From a virus: a DNA stretch of 29,773 bases. Below, piece after piece: positions 6,161 to 25,973 of this stretch (the first letter of the stretch is position 1; every line of letters begins with the position of its first letter). The stretch covers positions 1 to 29,773 of the IMG/VR virus record IMGVR_UViG_3300006802_000361; one strand, given 5' to 3'. The position numbers and the translations under genes were made by a program. The notes under the pieces are model-generated. The model had not been told where the DNA came from. It ran no database searches and was given only the letters and a program-made list of their open reading frames with translations.

Positions 6161-6385
6161 ATGGCTACACTGACTTTTAACGTCAACGTTCCCGATGCCG
6201 AGGTGCCGCGCGTAGTCGCGGCGCTTCGGTATGGTTTCGGCCAGCCGGCTGCAACACAGGCTCAACTTGTTGAGCTTGTCCGCCAGGACGTGCGCGACAA
6301 GCTGATTTCCATGGTCCGAACCTACGAAACACTGAAAAAGCGCGAGACGGCAAACGATCCCGTTTCCGCGCTTCCCGCAACCTAA
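6161..6385 (+). CDS. small hypothetical phage protein (74 aa)
   Basis: Starts with a strand-like segment, [19 protein letters not shown], followed by helical sequence with the pattern [18 protein letters not shown]. It ends in a short polar tail. No family was recognised. It is cytosolic or virion-associated, with no signal peptide or membrane segment. The gene lies 4 nt after the repeat protein and before two hairpins leading to the scaffold gene. Codon use is like its neighbours, and the conserved tight packing argues that it is real. Confidence 0.68.
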
Positions 6386-6386
6386 T

Positions 6387-6404
6387 TCCGGCAATAACGC
6401 CGGA
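6387..6404 (+). other. RNA hairpin upstream of scaffold gene
   Basis: TCCGGC (6387-6392) pairs with GCCGGA (6399-6404) around a 6-nt loop, just after the stop of the 74-aa gene. No T-run follows, so it is not a standard terminator. It may act as an attenuator or an mRNA stabiliser. Confidence 0.4.
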
Positions 6405-6409
6405 TTGCA

Positions 6410-6423
6410 GCGCCGTGAGGCGC
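6410..6423 (+). other. second RNA hairpin upstream of scaffold gene
   Basis: GCGCC (6410-6414) pairs with GGCGC (6419-6423) around the GNRA-like tetraloop GTGA. It lies only 5 nt after the first hairpin and about 36 nt before the scaffold start. Tetraloops of this class are unusually stable. Confidence 0.4.
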
Positions 6424-6459
6424 CGCCCCTCCCAGCGAGCAAGCTGAAAGGCACTCCAG

Positions 6460-7344
6460 ATGGAAACTACCGACCAGACCGCTCCGACACCGGAAACCGT
6501 TGCTGAAACCAACGCCCAGACGCCGGAGGTCGGAAACACCGAAGAACCGAACCAGGCCGAAACGCCCGAAGAAGGCGACGAGCAGGAAGGCCAGGAAGAG
6601 TTCATCGACATTGAGCAGAACGGGAAAACCTACAAGGTCCCCAAGTCGCTCGAAAGCCTTCTTATGTTCCAGAAGGACTACACGCAGAAAACGCAAACCC
6701 TAGCAGAGCAGCGCCGTGATCTTGAAGCCACGCGCCAAGCGACGGAATGGGAAGCGGGAACAAAGGCCGCGCTGTTCAGGGAGGAAGCCCAGGCTTTTGC
6801 CCTGGATCAAAGGCTGGAACAGTTCGCTAACGTGAACTGGCCGGCCCTGGCCCAGCAGGACATGCAGCGTTATGCGTCGTTGCAGGCCGAATATACGCAG
6901 TTAAGGGATGCCCGCTCCAAGATCGGAGAAGCCATCGACGGGCGTCGAGCCGAATTGATTGAGAACCGCGAGCGCCAGACCGCCACCGCGCTTCACAAGG
7001 CAATGGAGCACCTAAGCAAACCCAAGCCCGATATGGGCTGGGATGGCAAGTTTGACATGGCCAAGCGAGAAAGTCTGACCAAGTTTGGTCTGCAACTCGG
7101 GTTCACGGACGAGGAACTTTCCAACACGTCCCATCCCTTGATGGTGCAGACCCTGAACCTCGCTAGGATTGGCTATGAGAGCTTGAAGGCAAAATCCGCA
7201 AGCCTCAAACAGCAGCAGGAGGCGAAGCCCATTACCGTAGTTGCCAGCGGCAAGACACGGACAGGGCCGGCAAACCCCGACAAGCTGCCCATGAACGAGT
7301 GGATCAAATGGCGCGAAAAGCAAGTCAGCAATTCGCGCAAATGA
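6460..7344 (+). CDS. scaffolding protein (294 aa)
   Basis: Probable capsid scaffold that directs coat subunits into a procapsid and then leaves. The evidence is position (between portal and coat, as P22 gene 8), length close to P22 gp8 (303 aa) and composition. The N-terminus of about 55 residues is very acidic and Pro/Thr/Glu-rich. It is followed by long charged helices (for example YTQKTQTLAEQRRDLEATRQ) and a basic C-terminal end (NEWIKWREKQVSNSRK). In P22 the basic C-terminal helix-turn-helix binds coat protein, so the basic end here fits. No protease motif was seen, so no self-cleaving fusion is suggested. AAAGG precedes the start. Confidence 0.82.
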   Translation: METTDQTAPTPETVAETNAQTPEVGNTEEPNQAETPEEGDEQEGQEEFIDIEQNGKTYKVPKSLESLLMFQKDYTQKTQTLAEQRRDLEATRQATEWEAGTKAALFREEAQAFALDQRLEQFANVNWPALAQQDMQRYASLQAEYTQLRDARSKIGEAIDGRRAELIENRERQTATALHKAMEHLSKPKPDMGWDGKFDMAKRESLTKFGLQLGFTDEELSNTSHPLMVQTLNLARIGYESLKAKSASLKQQQEAKPITVVASGKTRTGPANPDKLPMNEWIKWREKQVSNSRK

Positions 7345-21557: not shown

Positions 21558-21962
21558 ATGCGCCGTTTTCTCGCCGCCGTGCTTTTTTTCGCATTTGCCG
21601 GAACGGCCATCGCCGCCGACAAGACCTGCCTTCTCGGCGACCGGCAGGAGTTCTTCGATTCCGTCAAGACGCTCAACCCGAAAATCTACCGCGCCACGCC
21701 AAAGGCGCTGGCCACGATCCTCGACAAGATCAACGCTCCCCGCCTCGCTGCCAAGTCCTACGCGTTGGAAGCCGACGAATTGTATCTAGGCGTTTTCACA
21801 ACGAAACAGGGAACCGTCATGGCCGGCATTGTCATGTTCAAGGATGGGTGCATCGTGCCGGGGACCGTCACGAGTATGAACATCGAACAGTGGGCCGCCT
21901 TCATGGAAATGATCGGCCTGAAGCGCGAGGATTTCTATGACCTCAAGGAGGCGACCTCGTGA
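21558..21962 (+). CDS. secreted protein in the lysis region (134 aa)
   Basis: Clear signal peptide: basic start MRRF, hydrophobic core LAAVLFFAFAG, and a signal peptidase I site after AIA (about residue 19). There is no lipobox Cys, so it is not an outer-membrane spanin lipoprotein. The mature part, of about 115 residues, has two Cys (CLLGD near its start, DGCIVPG later) that could form a periplasmic disulfide. No family was recognised. TAGGAGG gives a strong ribosome site. It overlaps the endolysin start by 4 nt, so it is made with it. It may modulate lysis or block superinfection, which is inference. Confidence 0.7.
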   Translation: MRRFLAAVLFFAFAGTAIAADKTCLLGDRQEFFDSVKTLNPKIYRATPKALATILDKINAPRLAAKSYALEADELYLGVFTTKQGTVMAGIVMFKDGCIVPGTVTSMNIEQWAAFMEMIGLKREDFYDLKEATS

Positions 21963-22411
21963 AAACCTCGATTGCCGGAATTGAGGCCATCGCCAAGCAC
22001 GAAGGCTTGAGGCTCCGGGCCTATCCAGACCCGGCAACGGGCGGCGAGCCGTGGACGATTGGCTACGGCCATACCAGCGCCGCTGGGCTTCCAAAGGTCT
22101 TGCGGGGCATGGTCATCACCAAGGAACGGGCGCGGGAAATCCTCGCCAATGATCTGGTGAAATTTGAGAACGCCGTCGAGAAGGCGCTGACGGTCAATCC
22201 GACGCAGAACCAGTTCGACGCCATGGTGAGCCTCTGTTTCAACATTGGGCCGGCGAATTTCGGCAAGTCCAGCGTTCTGAAATTCCACAATGGCCGCCAG
22301 TTTGAGAAGGCCGCCGGGGCATTTGCGCTCTGGAACAAGGCCGCCGGCAAGGTCATGGCCGGGCTGACCGCCCGCCGCGCCGCCGAGCGGGCGCTCTACC
22401 TCAAGAAATGA
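21959..22411 (+). CDS. endolysin, GH24 lysozyme (150 aa)
   Basis: Muramidase that cuts the glycan strands of peptidoglycan at lysis. The catalytic triad is visible in family order: E15 (KHEGLRLRAY), D24 (YPDPATGG) and T33 in PWTIGYGHT. The later conserved segment is NQFDAMVSLCFNIGPANFG, followed by GLTARRAAERALYL near the end. Length is normal for a single-domain T4/P22-type enzyme. There is no signal peptide or N-terminal membrane anchor, so it should need a holin to reach the wall. The start is GTG at 21959 with a perfect AAGGAGG at 21945-21951 and a 4-nt overlap with the upstream secreted protein. Confidence 0.95.
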   Translation: MKTSIAGIEAIAKHEGLRLRAYPDPATGGEPWTIGYGHTSAAGLPKVLRGMVITKERAREILANDLVKFENAVEKALTVNPTQNQFDAMVSLCFNIGPANFGKSSVLKFHNGRQFEKAAGAFALWNKAAGKVMAGLTARRAAERALYLKK

Positions 22412-22452: not shown

Positions 22453-22620
22453 ATGACCAAAGAAGCAGTAGGCGGCATCGTCCGCGCCATTCTCGCCGCC
22501 GGGGCCGGCTATCTCGCTGGCAAAGGTTTTATTGACGCCGGAATGGTTGATCAGCTCGTCGGTGCCGGCGTTCTGATCGTCACGGCCATCTGGTCCGTGC
22601 TGTCAAAGAAGGCCGCCTGA
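22453..22620 (+). CDS. Pam3-gp28-like putative holin (55 aa)
   Basis: The start at 22453 is chosen because AAGGAG at 22441-22446 is correctly spaced; an upstream in-frame start at 22408 has none. It contains two hydrophobic helices, GGIVRAILAAGAGYLAGKGF and QLVGAGVLIVTAIWSVLS, separated by a short turn (IDAGMVD), and a Lys-rich end (SKKAA). Size and pattern fit the small two-helix holins of the Pam3 gp28 type. It lies just after the endolysin gene and its stop overlaps the next start (TGATG). Together this makes it the best holin candidate in the window. Confidence 0.8.
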   Translation: MTKEAVGGIVRAILAAGAGYLAGKGFIDAGMVDQLVGAGVLIVTAIWSVLSKKAA

Positions 22621-23181: not shown

Positions 23182-23430
23182 ATGGCTCCGCGCATTCGGA
23201 TCAAGTGGATCAAATCGGACAAGGCGTGGGGCTACGCCGACACGGCCAAGCGAACAATCGAGCTTGACCGTCGCCTAGACGACAAGACGATGCTAGAAAT
23301 AGCGGTTCACGAGACGGCGCACATTTGCCTCCCCGTTCTGGACGACGCCGCCGTCGAGACGCTAGGCAAGCAGGCCGCCGATGTTCTCTGGCGGCTGGGC
23401 TTCCGACGCGCACATGATGGCGATGAATGA
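23182..23430 (+). CDS. mini zinc-metallopeptidase-like protein (82 aa)
   Basis: The core is EIAVHETAHICLPVLDD: HETAH at residues 43-47 is a complete HExxH zinc motif with Glu as general base. The helix after it (DDAAVETLGKQAADVLWRLG) holds candidate third ligands, for example E59 or D54. The N-terminus is a short beta-like sheet (RIRIKWIKSDKAWGYAD). At 82 aa it is close to the minimum for a metallopeptidase domain. Similar small HExxH proteins occur in other phages, with no established function I can name. Its stop overlaps the phosphoesterase start (ATGATG at 23427-23432). Activity is unproven. Confidence 0.72.
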   Translation: MAPRIRIKWIKSDKAWGYADTAKRTIELDRRLDDKTMLEIAVHETAHICLPVLDDAAVETLGKQAADVLWRLGFRRAHDGDE

Positions 23431-24389
23431 TGCCAAGAACTGGCCTTTCCGAAGATGAGTTTGTTGCAACCTGGATGAAGTTCGGCGGTCATGTGGTCAA
23501 CATTTCCAAGGCCCTTGGCGTCAACGAAAGGTCGGTCCACCAGCGACGAAAATCAATTGAGGACCGCCGGGCGATTGTTCTCCCCAGCAACCCGACGGCC
23601 CAATATTCGACCCGGCCCAAGGAGTACGTCGAGAAAATCGGCCACCGGATCACGCTCACGGCGAAAGATGCGGTGGCCGTTGTTTTTTCCGACGCCCATT
23701 ATTGGCCAAGCGACAAGCCAACCGCCCATGCCGCGCTTGTCCGGTTCATCAAGAAACACAAGCCGCAATTCGTAATTTGCGCCGGGGATGCTTTCGACGG
23801 TGCGAGTATTTCCCGGCACCCGGCAACCGAATGGGCCAACCTTCCCCGCGTCGATGAAGAACTTTCGTATTGTCAGCAGATGATGGCCGAGATCGAGGAG
23901 GCATCCCCGAAGGGCGCCAAACTATGCTGGACGATGGGCAATCATGATAGCAGGTTTTCCGCCCGTCTCGCCCAGATGGCCCCTGAATATGTCCGGGTCC
24001 ATGGCGTCGATCTTCCTGACCACTTCCCGGCGTGGAACCATTCATGGTCGGTGTTCATTAACGGCGTCGTGATAAAACATCGTTTCAAGGGGGGCGTTCA
24101 CGCAGCGTGGAATAACACGCTTTATACCGGGCGAACAATTGTTACCGGCCATCTGCATAGACTGGCAATTTCGCCATTCACGGACAGCAACGGCCGTCGC
24201 TATGGCATCGACTGCGGCACCCTGTCAGACTTCGGCCCCGATCAAAAAAAATTCGGTTATGCCGAAGATAACCCATTCAATTGGGCGTCCGGGTTCGCCG
24301 TTCTCACATGGCGCAATGGAGAGCTGCTCCCGCCGGAACTGGCAATCGTTCAAAACGCGGTGACTTGGTTCAGAGGCAAGCCACTATGA
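23427..24389 (+). CDS. HTH - calcineurin-like metallophosphoesterase (320 aa)
   Basis: Residues 8-43 look like a helix-turn-helix (DEFVATWMKFGGHVVNISKA with LGVNERSVHQRRKS). The remainder is a calcineurin-type phosphoesterase with all metal motifs in order: SDAH (D89, H91), GDAFD (D121, D124), GNHD (171-174), a His at 218 (IKHRF) and GHLH (241-244). The two-metal site should therefore be intact. Substrate is unknown; such enzymes can act on nucleic acid ends, cyclic nucleotides or phosphoproteins. The HTH suggests DNA or RNA targeting. It is coupled at both ends by 4-nt overlaps to the HExxH protein and the deoxyribosyltransferase-like protein. Confidence 0.88.
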   Translation: MMPRTGLSEDEFVATWMKFGGHVVNISKALGVNERSVHQRRKSIEDRRAIVLPSNPTAQYSTRPKEYVEKIGHRITLTAKDAVAVVFSDAHYWPSDKPTAHAALVRFIKKHKPQFVICAGDAFDGASISRHPATEWANLPRVDEELSYCQQMMAEIEEASPKGAKLCWTMGNHDSRFSARLAQMAPEYVRVHGVDLPDHFPAWNHSWSVFINGVVIKHRFKGGVHAAWNNTLYTGRTIVTGHLHRLAISPFTDSNGRRYGIDCGTLSDFGPDQKKFGYAEDNPFNWASGFAVLTWRNGELLPPELAIVQNAVTWFRGKPL

Positions 24390-24742
24390 AGATGGTCATT
24401 GTCGAAAGCCCGTTCCGCGCCACGGCGGAACGGAGCCAGGAACTTCACTTGACATATCTTAACCACTGCATCGCCGACAGCATCGAACGCGGCGAGGCGC
24501 CCTACGCAAGCCACGCAATCATGCCGCTGGTTCTCAATGACGATGACCCCGCCGACAGGCTCCGGGGCATCATGGCCGGCTGGCGATGGGGCGATCATGC
24601 CGACTTGGTCGCCGTTTACCGCGACCTAGGGATCAGCGAGGGGATGAAACTGTCAATTCAGCACTACGAAGCGATAGGAAAGCCGGTCGAATGGCGAACC
24701 TTGCCGCCGGCTCTTGTCAAATCTATTCTAGATGACGCCTAA
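24386..24742 (+). CDS. DUF7768-like / nucleoside 2-deoxyribosyltransferase-like protein (118 aa)
   Basis: The start at 24386 is chosen for the ATGA overlap; a reading from 24281 lies inside the phosphoesterase gene. The opening strand VIVESPFRA, then RGEAPYASHAIMPLVLND, GWRWGDHADLVAVYRDLGIS and GMKLSIQHYEAIGKPVEWR are the conserved blocks of a small phage family (DUF7768 to my recollection). That family resembles nucleoside 2-deoxyribosyltransferases or DUF4406 proteins, which bind nucleotides or NAD-like ligands. The catalytic Glu of true transferases cannot be placed with certainty, so activity is open. It is the last gene of the rightward block, 4 nt before a strong terminator. Confidence 0.78.
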   Translation: MKMVIVESPFRATAERSQELHLTYLNHCIADSIERGEAPYASHAIMPLVLNDDDPADRLRGIMAGWRWGDHADLVAVYRDLGISEGMKLSIQHYEAIGKPVEWRTLPPALVKSILDDA

Positions 24743-24746
24743 CCCC

Positions 24747-24778
24747 AGCCCGTCGCTTCCTCGGAGGCGGCGGGCTTT
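24747..24778 (+). terminator. Rho-independent terminator of the rightward late block
   Basis: AGCCCGTCGC pairs with GCGGCGGGCT (one T-G wobble) and the stem continues with C-G, T-G and T-A pairs to a small loop. TTTATAGTTTT follows. It lies 4 nt after the last rightward stop and separates the late block from the convergent leftward operon. The opposite strand has no T-run beyond the stem, so it probably works rightward only. The rest of the gap to 24857 is A+T-rich with no gene; a weak AGGCT/AGCCT repeat near 24805-24830 is not convincing. Confidence 0.82.
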
Positions 24779-24857: not shown

Positions 24858-25451
24858 CTACTTCGGCTTCCACGCGCACATCGGCATCGTTTTGCCGCCA
24901 TTGTCATGTTTGCGCCAGTTTCCCCATTCGTGCTGGCAGCGGCCACCGCCGCTCAATCTGCCCGAACCACCGCCGCTCGTGCCGCTCGATCCACCGTCAT
25001 CGCTACCACCATCATCGCTACCGCCGTCATCGCTACCGCCGTCATTGCCACCGCCGTCATCATTGCCGCCGTCATCGCCGCCACCGCCGTCGCCACCGCC
25101 GTCGCCACCGCTCGATCCGCCGTCATCGCCGCCATCGTCATTGCTACCGCCACCGTCATCGCCACCATTGCCGTTGCCGTTTCCGTTGCCGTTGCCGTTG
25201 CCGTTTCCGTTGCCGTTGCCGTTGCCGTTTCCGTTGCCGTTGCCGTTTCCGTTGCCACCGCCGTCATCGCCACCGTCATCGCCACCGTCATCGCCTCCTC
25301 CTGAAGAACCTGTTGAGCCACTGGTGCCGCTTGACCCGCCCGAGCCGCTGCCAGACGAGGTTTCGGCCTTGCTGATGCCGACGACGGCCGGCACCACATA
25401 GGCGGCGGTGGCCAGAAATCCAAACTTCTTGATCAGTTGACGACGATCCAT
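24858..25451 (-). CDS. Tat-signal, Gly-Asn/Gly-Asp-rich exported protein (197 aa)
   Basis: Begins MDRRQLIKKFGFLATAAYVV, a twin-arginine-like signal (RRQLIKK plus hydrophobic core), with cleavage possible after SKA near residue 29. The mature part is nearly all low complexity: Ser/Gly, then DDGG units, about 15 consecutive Gly-Asn dipeptides, then more DDGG, GSDDGG units. It ends in a short folded-looking tail (GRCQHEWGNWRKHDNGGK) with two Cys. AAAGGAG lies 8 nt before the start. The acidic runs could bind calcium, which is inference. As the last leftward gene, unrelated to DNA metabolism, it looks like a lysogenic-conversion (moron) gene. Opposite-strand frames here are Pro/Ser repeats and are rejected. 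Confidence 0.72.
   Translation of the reverse strand: MDRRQLIKKFGFLATAAYVVPAVVGISKAETSSGSGSGGSSGTSGSTGSSGGGDDGGDDGGDDGGGNGNGNGNGNGNGNGNGNGNGNGNGNGNGNGGDDGGGSNDDGGDDGGSSGGDGGGDGGGGDDGGNDDGGGNDGGSDDGGSDDGGSDDGGSSGTSGGGSGRLSGGGRCQHEWGNWRKHDNGGKTMPMCAWKPK
25168..25254 (-). repeat. hexanucleotide tract coding for about 15 Gly-Asn pairs
   Basis: On the - strand the tract is a run of GGCAAC and GGAAAC hexamers (GCCGTT/TCCGTT on +), 14 near-identical units plus one variant. The unit is a multiple of three, so gain or loss by replication slippage changes protein length without a frameshift. Confidence 0.9.
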
Positions 25452-25506: not shown

Positions 25507-25590
25507 TTAACCTAACGGCGCTGACAGAACGCCTACAATCAGCGCGGACATCTGCGAGGTGATCTCGCCGACGATTGTTCTAATAATCAT
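25507..25590 (-). CDS. mini-gene, 27-aa hydrophobic peptide
   Basis: Reads MIIRTIVGEITSQMSALIVG followed by VLSAPLG and TAA. The ATG (25590-25588) overlaps the upstream TGA by 4 nt, the same ATGA junction used by its operon neighbours. GGGAGG lies 5 nt upstream. The peptide is hydrophobic with one charged stretch and could lie in or on the membrane. It is too short for any family call. Start signals and coupling are the evidence; coding by chance is possible. Confidence 0.45.
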   Translation of the reverse strand: MIIRTIVGEITSQMSALIVGVLSAPLG

Positions 25591-25973
25591 CTCCGCCTCC
25601 CGCAAATTTCATATTTGTTCCTTGTCCGCCCACGCTTGCAGCCGGCGGCGTTCTTGCCGGGCGCCGCGCTCGCCACACGGGGCTGGTCCTGTTCCGGCAC
25701 TCGGTCATAGTAGACCTTCACAGGATGCGCCCTGGGCCGCTGCCACGGCAACTTGCCGATGGTATTGCCCGGCGGCGGGACGATGGCCGCCGACAATTCG
25801 CAGTCCATCCAGAGCCGCGCCCTGCCGCCGTTCTTGTCGGGCAACGCAACCTCGGTGTAGCACCTGGGCGACGGCTCGGGCGGCGGCGTCCAGTCGATCC
25901 CACGCATGGTGCCGCTGGCATAGGCCAGACCGACAATCAGCGGCAGCGCAACAATGGTGGCGCGGATGGTCAT
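25587..25973 (-). CDS. membrane-anchored or secreted hypothetical protein (128 aa)
   Basis: The N-terminus TIRATIVALPLIVGLAYASG is a signal peptide or signal anchor. The mature part is Pro-rich (DWTPPPEPSPRCYTEV) with four Cys spread along it. The end is strongly basic (GCKRGRTRNKYEICGRRR) with two of the Cys. It should lie in the periplasm or face it. No family was recognised. It overlaps the HNH gene upstream by 4 nt and the mini-gene downstream by 3 nt. An exported protein behind DNA-metabolism genes suggests host-envelope modification or exclusion, which is inference. Confidence 0.65.
   Translation of the reverse strand: MTIRATIVALPLIVGLAYASGTMRGIDWTPPPEPSPRCYTEVALPDKNGGRARLWMDCELSAAIVPPPGNTIGKLPWQRPRAHPVKVYYDRVPEQDQPRVASAAPGKNAAGCKRGRTRNKYEICGRRR

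Follow-up and report, generated by a model that had tools for sequence, protein, structure and literature searches.

The window, which is the whole stretch of DNA analysed here, is a 29,773-base virus record from IMG/VR; its left end carries terminase, portal and major head genes, and genes then run rightward up to a terminator-like stem. The features at the end of this run, the first two given as context, are as follows:

21959..22411, + strand, endolysin (phage lysozyme; Phage_lysozyme PF00959, E 1e-41)
22453..22620, + strand, holin of the Pam3 gp28 type (PF23987, E 1e-13)
23182..23430, + strand, minimal zincin-like protein with HETAH, 82 aa, class a (ORF list and motif)
23427..24389, + strand, helix-turn-helix (HTH) plus calcineurin-like metallophosphoesterase (MPE), 320 aa (PF00149, 33.1 bits; phrog_221, E 1e-29)
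24386..24742, + strand, DUF7768 protein, 118 aa with the ATG start at 24386 (PF24963, 77.4 bits)
24747..24776, + strand, terminator-like stem-loop at the end of the late genes (13 pairs, 9 of them G-C, loop of 4, T-rich tail)

Between the holin and the HExxH gene are two small ORFs that gave no significant family match. The HExxH/MPE and MPE/DUF7768 joints are each an ATGA with a 4-nt overlap, and the DUF7768 ORF has an alternative TTG start at 24281. The stem at 24747-24776 is the longest of seven terminator-like sites in the window, where shuffles predict 4.5. An earlier note on this DNA had described three motif-complete genes joined by 4-nt overlaps between the lysis genes and a terminator, and the ORFs and Pfam matches bore this description out. 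Past the terminator, on the minus strand, 24858-25451 encodes a 197-aa protein that matched no family; it contains a long repeat of Gly, Asn and Asp and has a start that we take to resemble a twin-arginine signal. In the close relative L007 nothing matching it was found, and there the counterpart of 25587-25973 comes after DUF7768 instead.

The HETAH motif occupies residues 43-47 of the 82-aa protein, which fell below the Pfam cut-offs of both DUF6782 (22.8 against 27 bits) and SprT-like (PF10263; 14.5 against 25.6 bits). In a 5-row alignment of this class, H43, E44, H47, P51, L53 and D54 were invariant, and no conserved His followed the HExxH. Thus, the protein has the HExxH in common with SprT/Spartan but differs in scoring under the Pfam cut-off, in belonging to a class without the further conserved His and in being nearer to the phrog_1233-type mini-zincins, to which class a was matched at 95% by hhalign. 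No match to the protein turned up in 50,697 phage records searched by tblastn, and a PDB sequence search with its profile returned only matches taken for chance. For a conceivable role as a lysis protease, which was also considered, the protein likewise showed no family match.

The MPE passed the Metallophos cut-off of 21.5 bits and carries D89xH91, G120D121xxD124, GNHD (171-174), H218 and GHLH (241-244). The metal-site residues D89, H91, D121, D124, N172, H173, H218 and H244 were kept in 47/47 rows, and H242 in 46/47. In the AF2 model (pLDDT 89), helices 9-18, 23-30 and 34-48 precede the catalytic domain, and the linker between the HTH and that domain, residues 51-60, is poorly ordered (mean pLDDT 56) and differs in length and sequence among relatives. 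The best fold match of the model was the proof-reading exonuclease PolD DP1 at Z 14.9, tied with others, and Vps29, LpxH and YfcE matched at nearly the same Z; a PDB sequence search with the MPE profile found no match. The window MPE therefore shares its fold and full metal site with the Mre11/SbcD and PolD DP1 nucleases, from which its N-terminal HTH sets it apart. Ten loci with a trio-type MPE were found in cellular-organism genomes, all of them in MAGs. Endolysins were the commonest neighbours of the MPE family, phrog_7 matching 10 of the 124 neighbour proteins scanned (out of 187, some being left out for space or length). The late, lysis-adjacent placement that the earlier note had pointed out is thus common for this family.

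The DUF7768 protein is a full member of PF24963, whose cut-off is 26 bits. Its AF2 model (pLDDT 95.9) matched 1t1j, which we take to be PA1492, at Z 12.2 and NDT, DNPH1 and MilB at Z about 9-10, each over about 100 residues; neither a PDB sequence search with the profile nor a literature search on DUF7768 returned a match or a paper. The fold is accordingly one held in common with the nucleoside 2'-deoxyribosyltransferase/DNPH1/MilB enzymes (Z 9-12), but the position of their catalytic Glu differs. By motif spacing and fold match, this position, in the helix after the S-x-G motif, corresponds to residue 90, which was G, A or S in 72/72 rows and Glu in 0/72, whereas Glu 7, at the end of strand 1, was invariant in the 72 rows. 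Only 34 columns align to the canonical motif in L246, with weak statistics, and the absence of the usual catalytic Glu is therefore graded as likely, not proven. With this Glu apparently missing, an assignment as an ordinary deoxyribosyltransferase is doubtful. None of the three window proteins matched an anti-defence Pfam family, all matches up to an E of 1 being counted.

The trio occurs in the same order in L007, with proteins 83-95% identical, and at about 45-55% protein identity in L176/L177/L182, L179, L185 and L192. Being kept in near and diverged relatives, the three-gene arrangement exceeds chance. In L176, the trio precedes methylase, amidase-like and holin-like genes (recognised by eye) instead of following lysis genes, which shows that its position can vary. 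In L185, an extra ORF (6242-6733), whose start presumably resembles NUMOD4/HNH homing endonucleases, lies between the MPE and DUF7768 and overlaps the MPE by 4 nt.

The third gene was found to be the loose one. Among the 12 class-a loci, DUF7768 followed the MPE in six, was absent in four and could have been cut off by the locus end in two; after dereplication by MPE sequence, it was present in 5 of the 8 class-a loci with this MPE family. Across the wider survey, DUF7768 adjoined the MPE in 5/143 distinct MPE rows, all class a. Conversely, PF00149 was present in 6/50 DUF7768 virus records, with the MPE within about 1 kb in three (L105, L106 and L165), so that only a minority of PF24963 members is coupled to an HTH-MPE. 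DUF7768 nevertheless adjoins an HTH-MPE in Vibrio phage MGD2 (phrog_221) and in Salmonella phage St162 and Vibrio phage 1222 (phrog_704). Given this recurrence in unrelated named phages and the few records with PF00149, the MPE-DUF7768 link recurs but is loose. Other neighbours of DUF7768 were each rare among the 132 proteins scanned (of 156, five being left out for space or length): N6_N4_Mtase 8, UDG 2, DNMK 2 and Acb1 1. The counts of 5/143 and 6/50 rule out the trio as an obligatory three-gene system. The conserved core is the HExxH zincin plus the MPE, and DUF7768 is an add-on. The earlier note's three-gene unit, for which it had proposed a neighbourhood survey, thus held within one lineage and, as a tight zincin-MPE pair, beyond it, whereas DUF7768 and the MPE each usually occurred without the other, which goes part of the way to refuting the note's unit.

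Two further arrangements were seen around DUF7768. In Salmonella phage St162 (L094), the tail, head and spanin genes nearby lie on one strand and the MPE and DUF7768, as a pair of genes, on the other. In the Gordonia phages L091 and L095, DUF7768 lies near a gene annotated 'phosphofructokinase', which matches DUF6378 in L091; the same annotation also overlaps the mycobacteriophage MPE matches. These observations suggest that MPE, DUF7768 and DUF6378 may form a loose network.

The pairing of zincin and MPE was examined from both sides. Starting from the window's HExxH protein, an HTH-MPE lay directly downstream in 12/12 class-a relatives, one of these MPEs being cut by the locus end and one belonging to another family, phrog_7339 'DNA repair exonuclease', with which the class-a protein is paired in L180/L189. 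Starting from the MPE alone and ignoring zincins, an HExxH ORF was found just upstream in 17/63 distinct loci compared with 7/472 control ORFs. A wider count gave 33/76 beside a loose downstream control of 23/514; 17/63 is the less biased figure, because 33/76 includes the chance-like match L003 and loci first reached through zincins. Same-strand HExxH ORFs were also concentrated near the MPE, at 24/216 within 500 bp upstream versus 4/936 further off, and at 11/241 within 500 bp downstream versus 7/1051 further off. Most of these loci are metagenomic fragments, related ones being counted repeatedly unless stated. The remaining 46/63 MPE-first loci had no HExxH ORF just upstream, and therefore the MPE can work alone.

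The HExxH ORFs near MPEs fell into four sequence classes: class a, that of the window; class b, of about 120 aa and, in the example L002, without a family match; class c, SprT-like, with the Pfam cut-off passed by L042, L038, L244 and L325; and class d, phrog_1233-like (L050, L087 and L236). Profile comparison gave a kinship of 95% for a-d, 80% for c-d, 68% for a-b and 9% for a-c, which suggests that some of the classes may be distantly related. Zincins of several classes lie upstream or downstream of the MPE, and they sit in several separate parts of a FastTree phylogeny of 126 MPEs, an approximate tree with long branches. On it, the zincin labels need 17 changes in all, and a class-c zincin downstream of the MPE needs four, at least three of which are forced by well-supported branches.

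The class-c zincins, which pass the SprT/Spartan Pfam cut-off (PF10263) and carry both the HExxH and a further conserved His, H93, were surveyed in reverse by taking the best 80 of at least 129 relatives, picked without reference to MPEs. Three of these loci begin at a contig end, and all 77 that hold flanking sequence (77/77, from the best 80 of at least 129) have an adjacent nuclease-fold gene; after removal of proteins more than 90% identical, 41/41 loci in this sample were paired. Within the same best 80 of at least 129, the partners were 64 MPE1 (63 upstream, 1 downstream), 8 phrog_284-type proteins, which are HTH-MPEs of a family labelled 'exonuclease', and 5 DEDD proteins; by fold, 72 are MPEs of two families and 5 are DnaQ/DEDD-type exonucleases. 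The gap between the two genes was exactly -4 in 46 of these 77 pairs and 538 in one. The DEDD profile was built, after reading, from 3 of the 5 class-c loci without an MPE. Four DEDD partners scanned against Pfam matched RNase_H_2 (E 1.5e-13 to 5e-16) and four scanned against PHROGs matched phrog_403 (E about 1e-90), the two scans together covering all five; their Pfam matches were to exonuclease models of the RNase H fold and, weakly, to zinc-ribbon models, with no HTH model among them.

The nucleases are less bound to the zincins than the zincins are to them. No HExxH ORF was found within 1.5 kb of the three relatives of the DEDD family viewed, and this family is mostly found away from zincins; a Bacteroides phage carries a phrog_284-type MPE relative between an ssDNA-annealing protein and a DNA polymerase. 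With nucleases found in zincin-free settings too, it is the zincin that depends on the nuclease and not the reverse. A counter-example is MW202481, in which another gene comes after the SprT-like one (31% identity) and a DEDD gene annotated polB about 1 kb beyond. In MW202713, no annotation covers the SprT-like ORF, and its partner bears the label 'archeal DNA polymerase iI'; this gene (L247, 3324-4562 of MW202713.1), which the SprT-like ORF precedes, is an HTH-metallophosphoesterase of phrog_284.

Recognisable homologues of the window MPE, at about 25-29% identity, occur in mycobacteriophages such as SWU1 and Severus, which we presume to be cluster A phages. The cluster A MPEs A10ZJ24 Gp48, D29 Gp66 and Bxb1 Gp47 are distant homologues that differ from the window in having no mini-zincin partner among the matches listed and in having 'phosphofructokinase' genes under the matches. 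Gp48 reportedly degraded DNA in vitro, was toxic and helped the phage counter host defence, and it is expressed early, in contrast to the presumably late window MPE; Bxb1 Gp47 is described as a directionality factor without phosphoesterase activity, and monoesters, diesters or cAMP are given as substrates of D29 Gp66 (PMC12287305). As the activities of Gp47 and Gp66 differ, the substrate of an MPE is unreadable from its family. Phage SprT-like proteins are mentioned for jumbo phages, for the replication module of Acinetobacter phage Loki and for mycobacteriophages (PMC7824862, PMC5313236, PMC12363180), and in the open-licence literature, as far as its text was available, no description of a zincin-nuclease pair was found.

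Several explanations of the locus were weighed against these data. The earlier note had suggested a nucleotide-signal or anti-defence unit. In this reading, the unit would remove an immune signal of cyclic-nucleotide or NAD-derived type, with the MPE hydrolysing the signal and DUF7768 acting on the nucleotide part. The nucleotide-enzyme fold of DUF7768, its adjacency to an MPE in MGD2, St162 and 1222 as well, the single Acb1 among its 132 neighbours and the name 2',3'-cyclic nucleotide phosphodiesterase, given to the relative D29 Gp66 (reference title in PMC12287305), are in its favour. Nevertheless, it leaves the zincin partner and the DEDD replacement of the MPE unexplained, and DUF7768 is seemingly without its catalytic Glu and is mostly found apart from the MPE. 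We regard it as improbable: a zincin found beside DNA-exonuclease-class MPEs and a DEDD exonuclease points to DNA/RNA processing, and the MPE, being replaceable by a DEDD exonuclease, is more probably a nuclease than an enzyme that hydrolyses cyclic nucleotides. An anti-defence role of another kind would still fit the distant relative Gp48, which degrades DNA and is reported to counter host defence (PMC12287305). Host take-over, with the zincin removing nucleoid proteins, the MPE degrading host DNA and DUF7768 recycling nucleotides, also seems unlikely, if somewhat less so. It would fit the disruption of host genomic DNA by A10ZJ24 Gp48 reported in PMC12287305, the dNMP-kinase-like gene (recognised by eye) beside DUF7768 in Vibrio MGD2 and the DNMK matches of 2/132 DUF7768 neighbours; a lysis-adjacent place, however, suggests expression that is late for scavenging, whereas Gp48 is an early protein (PMC12287305).

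The adjacency itself could be read in two other ways. It might be mere synteny in a late, moron-collecting region without functional coupling, as the frequent endolysins and other late genes nearby and the many loci from related environmental phages would allow; that the position next to the zincin is filled by three partner families, one of another fold, in most cases sharing the 4-nt overlap, and that zincins of several classes are found on either side, make this a rather unlikely account, intermediate between the two above. Least probable of all, in our judgement, is that the zincin switches its partner on or off by cutting the HTH-MPE linker at residues 51-60. ImmA/IrrE-type proteases do cut HTH regulators, the adjacency and overlap are fixed and the linker is of low confidence in the model, but the DEDD partner is a different protein with no HTH Pfam match, and the linker is variable in length and sequence.

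Our preferred reading, to which we give a probability of about 0.45, is a phage protease-nuclease module with the HExxH protein as one half and the HTH-MPE as the other, which would act late on protein-bound nucleic acid. Building on what was observed (coupled genes, folds, metal-site residues and a different nuclease in the MPE's place), the activities, substrate and timing might be pictured as follows. The HTH domain would bring the MPE, a predicted two-metal phosphodiesterase, to DNA; the mini-zincin would cleave proteins covalently or tightly bound there; and the MPE would then cut or trim the strand thus exposed, much like Spartan-type proteases and Mre11-type nucleases in cells. The module would most likely act on the phage's own DNA, late and ready for packaging, or on host nucleoprotein, and in the window's lineage DUF7768 may handle the released or damaged nucleotide. 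The strongest hint of nuclease action by the MPE is the DEDD exonuclease in its place. The PolD DP1 fold match, the phrog_284-type relative in the Bacteroides phage and the DNA degradation by Gp48 also speak for the reading; the sub-cut-off SprT-like score of the window zincin, the MPE loci lacking an upstream HExxH ORF, the near-equal fold matches, the name given to D29 Gp66 and the DEDD relatives viewed without a zincin speak against it. Where the partner is SprT-like, the cellular process that comes closest is the one in which Spartan takes off DNA-bound protein and Mre11 trims.

A more specific form of the protease-nuclease reading can be put forward only tentatively: the mini-Spartan zincin and an interchangeable nuclease, which can be a DEDD exonuclease or an HTH-MPE from any of three or more families, may make up a compact phage system for processing DNA-protein crosslinks or nucleoprotein ends, which would clean genomes late, before packaging, and to which some phages would add a DUF7768 with its catalytic Glu moved to E7. 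Many phage genes have no assigned function, those of the mini-HExxH proteins and these MPEs included. The strict partner rule, 77/77 for class c among the best 80 of at least 129 relatives and 12/12 for class a, joins two anonymous families into one system and offers a testable function. If the reading is true, phages own a crosslink or nucleoprotein-end processing activity of their own, and the system would show when infection needs it.
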